55,374 nt of DNA, taken from positions 1-55,374 of the forward strand of contig JAHDXH010000006.1 of NCBI GenBank assembly GCA_023382875.1, given 5' to 3'. Position 1 is the stretch's first letter. Each line of letters starts with the position of its first letter. The DNA is from Patescibacteria group bacterium (GTDB lineage Bacteria; Patescibacteriota; Microgenomatia; UBA1400; PJMF01). Shown in pieces: positions 6,089-47,519 of this stretch. The notes beneath the pieces were generated by a model that saw nothing but the letters and a program-made list of their open reading frames with translations, made no database searches and was not told where the DNA came from. Made by a program: the position numbers and the translations under genes.

Positions 6089-6277
6089 ATGAAAAAATTG
6101 GTTCGTCCTAAGAAGGGGAGAAAAGTAGCTGGCGTAGCTTTGGCTTTTGCTAATTACTTTAATTTAGATGTGACTTTGGTCCGTTTAATCTGGGTGTTTT
6201 TATTAATCCCAGGAGGTTTCCCAGGCTTTATTCCTTATGTTTTGTGTTGGTTGGTAATTCCTGAGGATACAAAGTAA
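6089..6277 (+). CDS. PspC domain protein
   Basis: This 62-residue protein is essentially one PspC domain: basic N-terminus RPKKGRKVAGVALAFANYFNLDVTLVRLIWVF, then a hydrophobic stretch PGFIPYVLCWLVIPE. In other bacteria PspC proteins sense or transmit envelope stress. It starts 1 nt after the bactofilin-like gene, so the two are surely co-transcribed and probably act together at the membrane. Confidence 0.85.
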   Translation: MKKLVRPKKGRKVAGVALAFANYFNLDVTLVRLIWVFLLIPGGFPGFIPYVLCWLVIPEDTK

Positions 6278-29858: not shown

Positions 29859-30535
29859 GCATTGATCAAAACCATGCCAGTAGCTCTTTTGAGGGGAGTG
29901 AGTTTGCCTTTTTTGTAGAGTTCAACTTTGAAGCCAGTTTGTTCAAGTTGTTTGACTAGCTCTGACAAGTTTTGACTAGGCACTGGATGAAACTCACACA
30001 AAATTTGCTTGACTAAACTTAGTTTTGGCACAGCTTCTTTAAGAACCACTTGTTCGGCACCCTCGATATCAATTTTGAGTAAGTCGATTGGTTGATTGAT
30101 CAGCGAGCTTAAGGTTACAGCTCTGACTTCAACAGGAGTAGTAGTTTGTGATTTGGTCCAATTGCCTTCGATGACACCGGCAGTGGAATGCCAGTTATTA
30201 TTGCTATCGGTGTGAAGGGTGATTGTTCCAGGTTTGGCTGCTACAGCTAGTTCAAGTGCATTAGTGGTTGTCAAGTTATTTTCAAAAATATTTTGTTCAA
30301 GTAACTTGAAATTTTTGGCGATTGGTTCCACGGCCATAATCTGAGCGTGAGGATAATGTTTTTTAAAGTAGAGAGTCGCTAAACCAATGTTGGCACCGAT
30401 GTCTAAAATAACTGGATCAGGCCTGTCTGACTCAAAGTAATAAAGATCTTCAGTAAAGATCTCATTTTTTAAAACATGATATTCTTCTTGGTTGTCGAAA
30501 AAAACGCTGAAAGTTCCAAGTTTTGTTTTTTGCAT
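29837..30535 (-). CDS. FkbM family methyltransferase
   Basis: The 232-residue product contains SAM-binding VILDIGANIGLATLYFKKHYP, AVEPIAKNFKLLEQN and the FkbM hallmark LLKIDIEGAEQVVLKEA. Members methylate sugars, lipids or small molecules, often in glycan clusters; the substrate is unknown here. Convergent with glyA, with a 22-nt overlap of coding ends. Divergent from nfo. Confidence 0.9.
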   Translation of the reverse strand: MQKTKLGTFSVFFDNQEEYHVLKNEIFTEDLYYFESDRPDPVILDIGANIGLATLYFKKHYPHAQIMAVEPIAKNFKLLEQNIFENNLTTTNALELAVAAKPGTITLHTDSNNNWHSTAGVIEGNWTKSQTTTPVEVRAVTLSSLINQPIDLLKIDIEGAEQVVLKEAVPKLSLVKQILCEFHPVPSQNLSELVKQLEQTGFKVELYKKGKLTPLKRATGMVLINAYQENKG

Positions 30536-36876: not shown

Positions 36877-38172
36877 ATGGAAATCTCAATTATTGGCCAT
36901 GGCTATGTGGGTTTGGTGACCGCCTGCGTATTCGCTGATTTTGGCAACAAAGTACACGTTATTGGTCGCACTCCAGAAAAAATCTCTCGTCTCAGATCCG
37001 GTGATCCGATTATCTATGAACCAGGTTTGGAAGAAATTTTAGATAGAAATCTCAAAAACGGTAATCTAGAATTTTCCACCACTTACGATTCCATTAAAAA
37101 TTCAGAAATTGTTTTTATTGCGGTTGGTACTCCGTCACAAGCAGATGGTTCGGCTGATTTAAGCCAAGTTAAGGTGGTGGCCAAGGAAATTGCTTTGGCA
37201 CTAGGGGAGAGCTTCACGGTTGTTTCCTGCAAGAGTACTGTTCCAGTAGGAACAAATAGAGCAGTTGAAAAAATCTTAACTGAAAATGCGCCAGCTCATG
37301 CTAAATTTGCTGTTGCTTCATGTCCAGAGTTTTTAAGAGAGGGAACAGGAGTTTCTGATACTCTCTCCCCCGATAGAGTAGTGATCGGCACAGAATCCAA
37401 GAAGGCAGCCGATCTGCTTTTAGAACTTCATAAGCCAATTGGCGGTCAAAGAGTGGTTTGTGATTTATCATCCGCAGAAATGATTAAATATGCCTCAAAT
37501 TCGATGTTGGCGACTAAGATCTCCTTTGCCAATTTAATCGCCGAAATGAGTGAAGTGGCTGGGGCTAATGCACCATTAGTTTTGAAAGCTGTAGGGTTGG
37601 ATAACCGCGTTGGAGCTAAATTCTTAGACGCAGGTATTGGTTATGGCGGTGCGTGTTTCCCCAAAGACGTCAAAGCTTTAGCTTTTATTGGCAAGGACTT
37701 GGGTGTTGACTCTAGCTTACTTGATCAAGTCGAAAAGATTAATCATAATGCTCGCGAACGTTTTGCTGAAAGAATTGTCAAACATGCCAAGGGCAAAGTT
37801 TTGGCTATTTGGGGTTTGAGTTTCAAGCCAAATACTGATGATATTCGCGAAGCGCCGTCCATCGAAATCATGAAGTATCTACTCAAAAATGGCTTTTCTC
37901 TTAGAGTTTATGATCCTCAGGCTATGGGTCACATCAGAAGGATTTTTGGTGATCAACTGAGTTATTTCGACAACAAAGATGATGCTTTGGCTGGTTCAGA
38001 TAATTTAGTGGTTTTGACTGAATGGAGTGAATTTGCCGCCGCAGATCTGGAAGAAGTCAAAAAAGTATTGAAAAATCCAGTAATTTTTGATGGTAGAAAC
38101 GTTTTTGATCCAGAACAAATGGGCAAACTTGGCTTTGAGTATTACTCAGTTGGTCGAAAAGACGTTAAATAA
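36877..38172 (+). CDS. ugd: UDP-glucose 6-dehydrogenase
   Basis: The product has 431 residues from ATG 36877, where the start MEISIIGHGYVGLVTACVF matches the family exactly; two earlier ATGs would add only MMD. The Rossmann GHGYVG is at 7-12, followed by VAVGTPSQADGSADLS and the catalytic cysteine in GYGGACFPKDVKAL. The C-terminal domain has WGLSFKPNTDDIREAPS. It oxidises UDP-glucose to UDP-glucuronate with two NAD+. The next gene uses that product. Confidence 0.94.
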   Translation: MEISIIGHGYVGLVTACVFADFGNKVHVIGRTPEKISRLRSGDPIIYEPGLEEILDRNLKNGNLEFSTTYDSIKNSEIVFIAVGTPSQADGSADLSQVKVVAKEIALALGESFTVVSCKSTVPVGTNRAVEKILTENAPAHAKFAVASCPEFLREGTGVSDTLSPDRVVIGTESKKAADLLLELHKPIGGQRVVCDLSSAEMIKYASNSMLATKISFANLIAEMSEVAGANAPLVLKAVGLDNRVGAKFLDAGIGYGGACFPKDVKALAFIGKDLGVDSSLLDQVEKINHNARERFAERIVKHAKGKVLAIWGLSFKPNTDDIREAPSIEIMKYLLKNGFSLRVYDPQAMGHIRRIFGDQLSYFDNKDDALAGSDNLVVLTEWSEFAAADLEEVKKVLKNPVIFDGRNVFDPEQMGKLGFEYYSVGRKDVK

Positions 38173-39121: not shown

Positions 39122-40089
39122 TTTTTCTTTTTGTTTATATTAAGATTTCCTCCTCTGTTTTTATTAGAGTAGGGGGTCTATAGATTTTTGAGACGTCCAG
39201 ATGTAGGGAAGAGTGAATGATATAGTTTGATATAGATAAGTATAGTCTATCTACGTCCTATAACAATGTGGAAAACTCCAAAATTTCCGTGAAATTCTGA
39301 GGGTGTGAAATGAAGCGCTTTAAGGCTACTTACTCGAGTAGAAGCTCAGATTAGCTACACATGTGAATAAGTTATTGAACACAAAATATTATGATGTATG
39401 GCTCAAAATAGAGAGTGAAAGAATAAAAAACCCGAACCGATCAAGCCATTTGCGGGAATAAATCTGGTGTTTTTTGAATGTTTTTGGAGGGAGCTGAGAG
39501 GGGTTTTTATCAGAAGGCTGGCTAGGAATGGGGATGATGCCAAGTAAAAGAAAGAGTACGGTGATTTCCAAGTGATTTTAAAGTGGTGATGATGGTGATT
39601 TATGTTCTCCTCTACTTTTTGATAGGGGGAGTTCTTGATCTAAACATTATGTCGCACAATATAACTTTTGCGACATAGACCACATTTTGCTCGAAGTAGG
39701 TAGTTATCCTCTTTTTATTTTATGTCTGATTTTATTTCTATTAAAAATAATAAATTCTGTTTTTATTTTTGTTTTCTTGATCTCTGCCCCGTCTTAGGCA
39801 TCCTGAGTTTGTGGGCGGATTTTCAGCTCCTAGTCAAAATATCTAAAAAGTCATCAAAAGGTCTAAAATGACATCCAATACCTATTATCCAATGATAGAT
39901 TGGTCATCTTTTTAATAAAAAGCCGTTTTTGGGCGTTTAATGAGCTCATATCTGGTAAATAGCTATAAATCAATCTTTTTAAACAAATGACCAATCGAAT
40001 TTGAGGTTGACGGGTCATTTTGTAGTGATGTTTGGCTGTAGCTACAACTTTAGTGTACTAAGCTGATGAAAAACCTGGTTTCCAATGCG
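39122..40089. other. long AT-rich noncoding region upstream of the small gene and xer
   Basis: No convincing coding frame is present in nearly 1 kb, unusual in a window this compact. It contains a 30-bp palindromic site at 39648-39677. There are two related pyrimidine/purine hairpins near 39150-39175 (CCTCCTCT...GTAGGGGG) and 39606-39632 (CTCCTCTA...TAGGGGGAG). There is also a 10-bp inverted repeat GATTGGTCAT/ATGACCAATC (about 39899 and 39986), a palindrome TACTCGAGTA near 39330, and a 19-mer at 39962-39980 that recurs at 41341-41359. It could hold a recombination or replication-linked locus, or untranslated RNAs. Confidence 0.6.
39648..39677. other. dif-like palindromic recombination site (candidate)
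   Basis: Left arm TATGTCGCACAA (39648-39659), 6-bp centre TATAAC, right arm TTTTGCGACATA (39666-39677). The arms are inverted repeats at 11 of 12 positions. The 12-6-12 geometry is close to the 11-6-11 of Xer dif sites, and the site lies about 0.6 kb upstream of the Xer gene. The arm sequence does not match the E. coli dif consensus. Confidence 0.45.
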
Positions 40090-40294: not shown

Positions 40295-41233
40295 ATGAGT
40301 GTTTCAACTCTCCCCCAGCCAGCTTTACTAACTTTCTTGGAACATTTGGAAGTAGAAAGAAATGTGAGTCAGTTGACGATTAGAAACTATGCTCATTATT
40401 TAAGGCGTTTTACCGATTGGTTTATGGGTGAGGGTCATTCTGATTTAAAGCAATTGGACCAAGATGTCTTAAGAAAGTACCGTGTTTACCTTGCTCGTTT
40501 GACTGATGAAAAAGGTAATGAGTTGGCCAACTCCACTCAAAGTTACCACATCATTGCTCTTCGTTCTTTCCTTAAATATTTAGTCAAACAGGACTGCCCT
40601 GTTCTCCACCCCGAAAAAATTGATTTGCCCAAAGCCGATGCTAAGCACATGGAATATTTAAACAATCATGAATATGTGGAGAGATTTTTATCACAACCCG
40701 ATTTGGATTCAAAAACTGGCTTGCGCGATAAAGCGATGTTGGAAGTTTTATTTTCCACGGGCCTGCGCGTAAGCGAGTTAGTGTCGCTTAGTCGTGACCA
40801 ACTTAATATCGAGTCACGAGAATTTGGTGTGATCGGAAAAGGTCGACGACCACGAGTTGTTTTTTTATCTGACCGCGCAGCGACGTGGTTGGTGCAGTGG
40901 TTGAATTCGCGACATGATAATTGGCGACCAGTTTTTATTCGTTTAGCCAAAGACAAACCAGATCTTTTAGCTGACGGTGAAGAGATGCGTTTAACTACAA
41001 GAAGTGTTCAGCGCATCGTCGATAAGTATGCAAGACAAGCTCATTTACCAGTTAAGATTAGTCCCCATGGCTTGCGTCATACTTTCGCTACTGATCTTTT
41101 GGCCAACGGCGCTGGGCTCCGCGATGTTCAAGAAATGTTGGGACATAAAAATATTGCGACTACCCAAATTTACACACACGTTACGCAACCAAAGCTAAAA
41201 CAAACTCATAAAAAGTTTCATTCTAAGTTTTAG
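40295..41233 (+). CDS. xerC: Xer-type tyrosine recombinase
   Basis: The 312-residue product has an N-terminal SAM-like core-binding domain (residues 8-100: FLEHLEVERNVSQLTIRNYAHYLRRF) and a catalytic domain. The catalytic set is Arg158 (STGLRVSEL), Lys182 (GKGRRPR), His258 and Arg261 (SPHGLRHTFAT), His284 (LGHKNIATTQ) and Tyr293 (IYTHV). It is closer to XerC/XerD than to phage integrases. Xer proteins resolve chromosome dimers at dif. As the only recombinase here, it may work alone, as in single-Xer systems. Palindromes lie on both sides. Confidence 0.92.
   Translation: MSVSTLPQPALLTFLEHLEVERNVSQLTIRNYAHYLRRFTDWFMGEGHSDLKQLDQDVLRKYRVYLARLTDEKGNELANSTQSYHIIALRSFLKYLVKQDCPVLHPEKIDLPKADAKHMEYLNNHEYVERFLSQPDLDSKTGLRDKAMLEVLFSTGLRVSELVSLSRDQLNIESREFGVIGKGRRPRVVFLSDRAATWLVQWLNSRHDNWRPVFIRLAKDKPDLLADGEEMRLTTRSVQRIVDKYARQAHLPVKISPHGLRHTFATDLLANGAGLRDVQEMLGHKNIATTQIYTHVTQPKLKQTHKKFHSKF

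Positions 41234-45489: not shown

Positions 45490-47519
<2,030 letters not shown>

Follow-up and report, generated by a model that had tools for sequence, protein, structure and literature searches.

Introduction

In the XerS, XerH and XerA systems, one recombinase binds both arms of dif. Nearness to the terminus indicated by GC skew is the usual correlate of dif but is not part of its definition. Linkage of the site to the recombinase gene is a hallmark of XerS/difSL and of most XerH/difH systems (PMC2731167). In Proteobacteria and Firmicutes, dif is usually located within 3% of the genome length of the skew switch, and in the Kono survey xerD was found near dnaA where xerC is near dif (PMC3025954). 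IMEX elements are known to use dif (PMC5357621). A GC skew of one sign is described for Ch65, Collierbacteria and Beckwithbacteria in the accessible part of PMC7143001. For Patescibacteria, no description of dif or KOPS was found in the open-access literature searched. These organisms account for a large share of bacterial diversity.

Here, we analyzed a palindromic site in a stretch of DNA of 55,374 nucleotides (the window). We conclude, with a probability of roughly 94%, that the palindrome at 39648-39677 serves the class Microgenomatia (Patescibacteria) as its dif site, although no binding, cleavage or dimer-resolution experiment supports the assignment. The original prediction had suggested that it might be the unrecognized dif of its lineage, and conservation, copy number, linkage to xer and common orientation with it, geometry, homology, the reversal of AGGGGAG at the site and copies in phages all back this suggestion. 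As a fixed landmark for Microgenomatia genomes, the site is independent of GC skew, which cannot be relied upon in this class. In combination with AGGGGAG, it opens FtsK reading, dimer resolution and the odd skew of a single sign to testing.

Sequence and geometry of the site

The site as found, TATGTCGCACAATATAACTTTTGCGACATA, was computed directly at 39648..39677 of the plus strand and agrees in every detail with its first description: it is 30 bp long (12-6-12), its 12-bp arms agree at 11 of 12 positions and its centre is TATAAC. Read as 11-6-11, it becomes a 28-bp imperfect palindrome, which is the length of dif. The left predicted recombinase-binding arm of 11 bp (ATGTCGCACAA, 39649..39659, plus strand) aligns with the XerC arm of E. 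coli dif (GGTGCGCATAA), and the right arm (TTTTGCGACAT, 39666..39676, plus strand) aligns with the XerD arm (TTATGTTAAAT). Column counts for the 6-bp central region (39660..39665, plus strand) indicated that its inner four bases vary between lineages while the outer T and C are almost invariant.

When we searched the 1.008-Mb genome of the window (29 contigs), the 30-mer was present as a sole copy, even at 3 mismatches. The site is intergenic and meets the criterion for a bacterial dif of being single-copy and conserved. The palindrome by itself is weak evidence, since the window contains two 12-6-12 inverted repeats with at least 11 of 12 matches and 0.4 would be expected; it is the conservation of the site, and not a palindrome that might arise by chance, that makes it significant.

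The arms had been regarded as unlike the classical dif, and this view had to be abandoned. The window site is identical to E. coli dif at 16 of 28 positions (shuffle p=0.0008), and its sister forms reach 18-19/28 (18/28 for the f17 consensus, 19/28 for the Falkowbacteria site); B. subtilis dif scores 19/28 in the same comparison. The Falkowbacteria form and E. coli dif have a 16-mer in common (CGCATAATGTATATTA). Thus, in length (28 bp), geometry (11-6-11) and identity (16-19/28) the site resembles the dif of the dif/XerCD and FtsK/KOPS systems of E. coli and B. subtilis, but its arms are nearly symmetric, unlike those of E. coli dif.

Conservation

The degree of conservation was also computed directly. 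Comparison of the xer-adjacent region in relatives, which had been named as a check, turned out in favor of the prediction: the site is identical in a congener and was found with 0-5 mismatches at 26 of 30 family loci around orthologous xer genes. At the other four loci, the fetched contig ends early upstream of xer. Within the order, 76 of 88 genomes contained the core pattern, each of them once, and the reversed control pattern was not found in any of these 88. In the class sample, 261 of 374 genomes gave a match, nearly always as one copy that was identical or nearly so, and nearly all genomes with the site in the order and class scans had no second copy. The profile scan named relatives among Pacebacteria, Levybacteria, Curtissbacteria and Gottesmanbacteria, and these assign the lineage to the Microgenomatia (class name after PMC7143001).

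From 64 distinct sites we derived the consensus GTCGCACAA-TNNNNC-TTTTRCGAC. Positions 4 and 27 are conserved in 61 and 63 of these 64 sites, respectively, and both lie outside the searched core, so that their conservation was not imposed by the search pattern.

About 30% of the sampled class genomes gave no match at the stringency used, among them the majority of genomes in families f20 and f26; as far as can be judged from sequence, the dif of these two families must be more divergent or lost. Neither the linked Xer orthologue nor the site was found in two genomes of the window's own family, G003 (100% complete) and G035 (93%), which suggests joint loss or replacement of the pair. The unmatched share of the class and these two genomes count against the dif reading. 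Outside the class, dif-like palindromes were seen a short way upstream of xer in several other lineages of Patescibacteria (four loci), and a PSSM built from the Microgenomatia sites found no site in Saccharibacteria loci.

Recombinases and FtsK

A Xer recombinase gene had been placed about 0.6 kb downstream of the site, and it does start 617 bp downstream. It encodes a tyrosine recombinase of 312 aa (40295..41233, plus strand) with a phage-integrase domain (E=2e-40). The linkage was computed directly: the site precedes xer in the same orientation at each of the 26 family loci that carry it and at all 25 further loci that have xer within 1.5 kb. The distance between the two ranges from 242 bp to ~1.2 kb in the fetched flanks and amounts to 2-3 kb in named relatives. 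The catalytic residues R158, K182, H258, R261, H284 and Y293, which were assigned by motif position, are invariant in 10 relatives. The best solved relative of the linked Xer is E. coli XerD (E=3e-38), and the whole protein aligns to the XerD-FtsK gamma structure 5dcf. It is of the XerC/XerD type, under the NCBI equivalog cut-offs for either. FtsK gamma (PF09397) scored above the cut-off in 7/7 genomes.

The linked Xer had been called a lone recombinase. This holds for the window, which has no other, but not for the genome, in which a second Xer is encoded (G000:C20:9014-9871). Of 110 class genomes, 102 encode the second Xer, and in those closed genomes that were compared its gene is ~30-170 kb away from dnaA. 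Every copy with a readable box II carries Asn in place of the His of HxxR (VNDLRHT). Its C-terminus is conserved and ends with EEL or similar. The idea of a single-Xer system was correct insofar as dif is linked to a recombinase gene; its other element, that there be only one Xer, is not met, and such a system is not established because a second conserved Xer exists.

A variant of the dif reading would nevertheless keep one recombinase at work, with the linked Xer alone on both arms and the second Xer in another job. We regard this variant as a serious contender whose chances fall just short of even. The near-identity of the arms (11/12), which exceeds the symmetry of E. coli dif, speaks for it, as do the Asn in the second Xer and the linkage of site and gene into a module, as in XerS/difSL and most XerH/difH systems (PMC2731167). 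Against it stand the core-gene-like spread of the second Xer, its location near dnaA, which is that of xerD where xerC is near dif (PMC3025954), the resemblance of the linked Xer to XerC/XerD and not to XerS/XerH, and the presence of FtsK gamma. It remains unproven whether Microgenomatia dif is bound by one or by both recombinases, and which of them act.

As a dif site, the locus can be set against described systems. With dif/XerCD it has in common a recombinase of the XerC/D type, FtsK gamma and a G-rich motif whose polarity converges on the site, but it is genetically linked to one Xer and located away from the GC-skew switch. Like the difSL/XerS and difH/XerH modules, it adjoins its own recombinase gene (PMC2731167); in contrast to these, its linked Xer is far nearer to XerD/XerC, its 28-bp geometry is classical and a second Xer is conserved. 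Archaeal dif/XerA likewise involves a near-palindromic 11-6-11 site with short polar motifs (PMC5357621), whereas Microgenomatia have a bacterial FtsK gamma, two Xers and a G-rich heptamer.

A polar motif directed at the site

About 400 kb was sampled in stretches from each of four closed genomes, which represent three families, and k-mers received scores according to whether they point to the site in both chromosome arms. Here, AGGGGA and AGGGGAG stood out, and AGGGGAG was the only one of 14,984 oriented 7-mers for which the strand-switch interval included the site in all four genomes. With the origin set at dnaA, its best reversal points were 348,610, 818,758, 742,032 and 149,408, and the sites of these genomes are at 348,684, 818,870, 741,520 and 149,250 in the same order. 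The polarity reversal at the site is a direct observation: the best breakpoint and the site are ~0.1-0.5 kb apart in the four scanned genomes and ~0.1-5 kb apart overall.

Since AGGGGAG was chosen on these four genomes, the held-out data weigh more. At 85 loci of other genomes, 109 copies point towards the site and 3 point away, but a p-value for this ratio cannot be taken literally because the loci are related. In the held-out genome G186, 56 of 64 copies fit, and the flip at 702,032-709,555 includes the site (707.9 kb); in G128 and G047, also held out, AGGGGAG flips at the site as well. For G103, the flip (616,273 to 621,321) was recorded before the site was looked up, and when the site was then found at 620,909, it had been predicted blind to within 5 kb.

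The bias does not depend on gene sense: it was seen for antisense (30:14) and intergenic copies (22:2), and sense copies are biased too. Because the strand of the Shine-Dalgarno-like AGGAGG is tied to gene sense and that of AGGGGAG is not, we rejected the possibility that AGGGGAG is a Shine-Dalgarno sequence. The polarity is strong close to dif and weakens with distance, and in G047 and G063 the portion of the long arm nearer to dnaA contains mixed or reversed copies.

In the window, plus-strand copies at 37203..37209, 29892..29898 and 6114..6120 point to dif, and a minus-strand copy at 47049..47055 points to it from the other side. A GGGGAG (within GGGGGAG) at 39626..39631 on the plus strand is located just before the site and also points to it. 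The only contrary copy in the window (41558, plus strand) is inside a tRNA gene.

We consider it very probable that AGGGGAG is the KOPS of Microgenomatia dif, with its reading by FtsK being an inference. It differs from the KOPS forms of E. coli and B. subtilis (GGGNAGGG or GAGAAGGG). These forms were tried as candidates and rejected, since there were too few copies and the polarity was not clear.

According to the mechanism that we propose, FtsK would load on AGGGGAG motifs. These are directed at the site from either side, and FtsK would travel along the DNA to it, so that two sister dif copies would meet at the septum. The linked Xer, whose action on the site is inferred, would bind one 11-bp arm or both. 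If it binds only one, the second Xer, whose gene is near dnaA, may occupy the remaining arm; binding of both by the linked Xer is conceivable because the arms differ so little. Recombinase cuts would fall where the 6-bp centre meets the arms, and chromosome dimers would be converted to monomers; dimer resolution as the product is likewise inferred.

Chromosome position and GC skew

The genome of the window is not closed and, therefore, the chromosomal position of its own dif could not be measured. The distance of the site from dnaA is 0.32-0.43 of the chromosome in seven closed genomes of other families and 0.17-0.20 in two closed genomes of the window's own family. In each of these nine genomes, the shorter path to dnaA leads off from the left-arm side of the site.

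A GC-skew switch had been expected at the site, and this expectation failed: none of the four closed genomes profiled had a sign change there. In G020 and G038, which belong to the window's family, the sign changes at dnaA and again near 0.5 Mb, which is 28-30% of the chromosome (about 240-350 kb) away from the site, and this result persists after genes are separated by strand. In G045 and G063, a single sign was found in every stretch sampled (the last G063 stretch was excluded). In the window, the skew is ~0.15 before the site and near 0.0-0.1 past it. In G045 and G063, the short arm shows a strong skew between dnaA and dif, and the long arm a weaker one.

The small distance from dnaA in the family and the remote skew switch count against the dif reading. 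As a terminus marker in Microgenomatia, GC skew was rejected, since the switch is either far from the site or absent. For this site the skew criterion would have misled, whereas AGGGGAG polarity, which is independent of skew, lands on it within ~0.1-5 kb; dif and AGGGGAG polarity agree with each other and not with skew. The single sign in G045 and G063 is like that of Ch65 and related Microgenomates (PMC7143001, as far as that source was accessible). In the accessible part of that study neither dif nor a polar motif was located; here both were mapped, and both are independent of skew.

It is a tentative idea, somewhat less likely to be right than to be wrong, that the chromosome-separation machinery (dif, AGGGGAG polarity and part of the gene orientation) is anchored at dif and that the strand asymmetry of replication is not. 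If true, replication would end far from dif or run mostly one way round the circle, and the organization of dimer resolution would not depend on where replication terminates. The mismatch between dif and skew, the cause of which is unknown, could be accounted for by replication that is mainly one-directional or by termination away from dif.

Gene orientation changes near the site in several genomes, and AGGGGAG polarity changes there too, as would be expected of a Ter-like replication fork barrier at the true end of replication. We consider such a barrier very unlikely, since skew changes sign at the site in none of the four closed genomes profiled and both geometry and sequence are those of dif.

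Copies in viral contigs

The exact 24-bp core of the site was found in 13 IMG/VR contigs, and the reversed pattern in none. The genes on these contigs include terminases, a primase, a ribonucleotide reductase and one distant integrase; the linked xer was not seen in the portions of the contigs that were read. Such copies raise the question of whether the site, with an integrase-like gene beside it, is primarily an attachment site of a phage or another element and not dif. This is improbable in the extreme, since the class has inherited the site in single copy and with an unchanging neighbor, since the site is homologous to dif and forms the centre of a chromosome-wide polar motif, and since the phage copies fit the known use of dif by IMEX (PMC5357621).

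With the site taken as dif, the copies fit the idea that phages borrow the host Xer there. The viral contigs with an exact dif resemble IMEX phages of the CTXphi type that integrate at dif, but integration was not shown for them and some were read only in part. The dif copies also tag phages of uncultured hosts. Among the central hexamers of the viral contigs are the host-lineage types TATATC, TGTTTC and TATACC.

Surroundings of the site

As a conserved palindrome that invariably precedes xer and shares its orientation, the site might be thought an operator, attenuator or terminator hairpin controlling that gene, but we give this explanation the least credence of all, since the distance to xer varies, no T-run follows the site and AGGGGAG polarity reverses there across whole chromosomes. 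In an Rfam scan near the site, only tRNA was above the cut-off.

The gap that contains dif had been described as a noncoding kilobase. Its size (1.17 kb) is in line with this description, which needs correction in that the gap holds a 38-codon ORF (40206-40090, minus strand). This ORF is located between dif and xer behind AAGGAGG, and its counterpart in the congener is an ORF of 84 aa in the same place with some similarity. A block at 39425-39465, TAAAAAACCCGAA..ATCAA.CCATTTGCGGGAATAAAT, in which CCCG can pair with CGGG, is conserved in the congener to a far greater extent than its surroundings. At 39264-39277, the window reads AATGTGGAAAACT, and the congener version, AATGTGGATAACT, includes a perfect DnaA-box sequence (TGTGGATAA).
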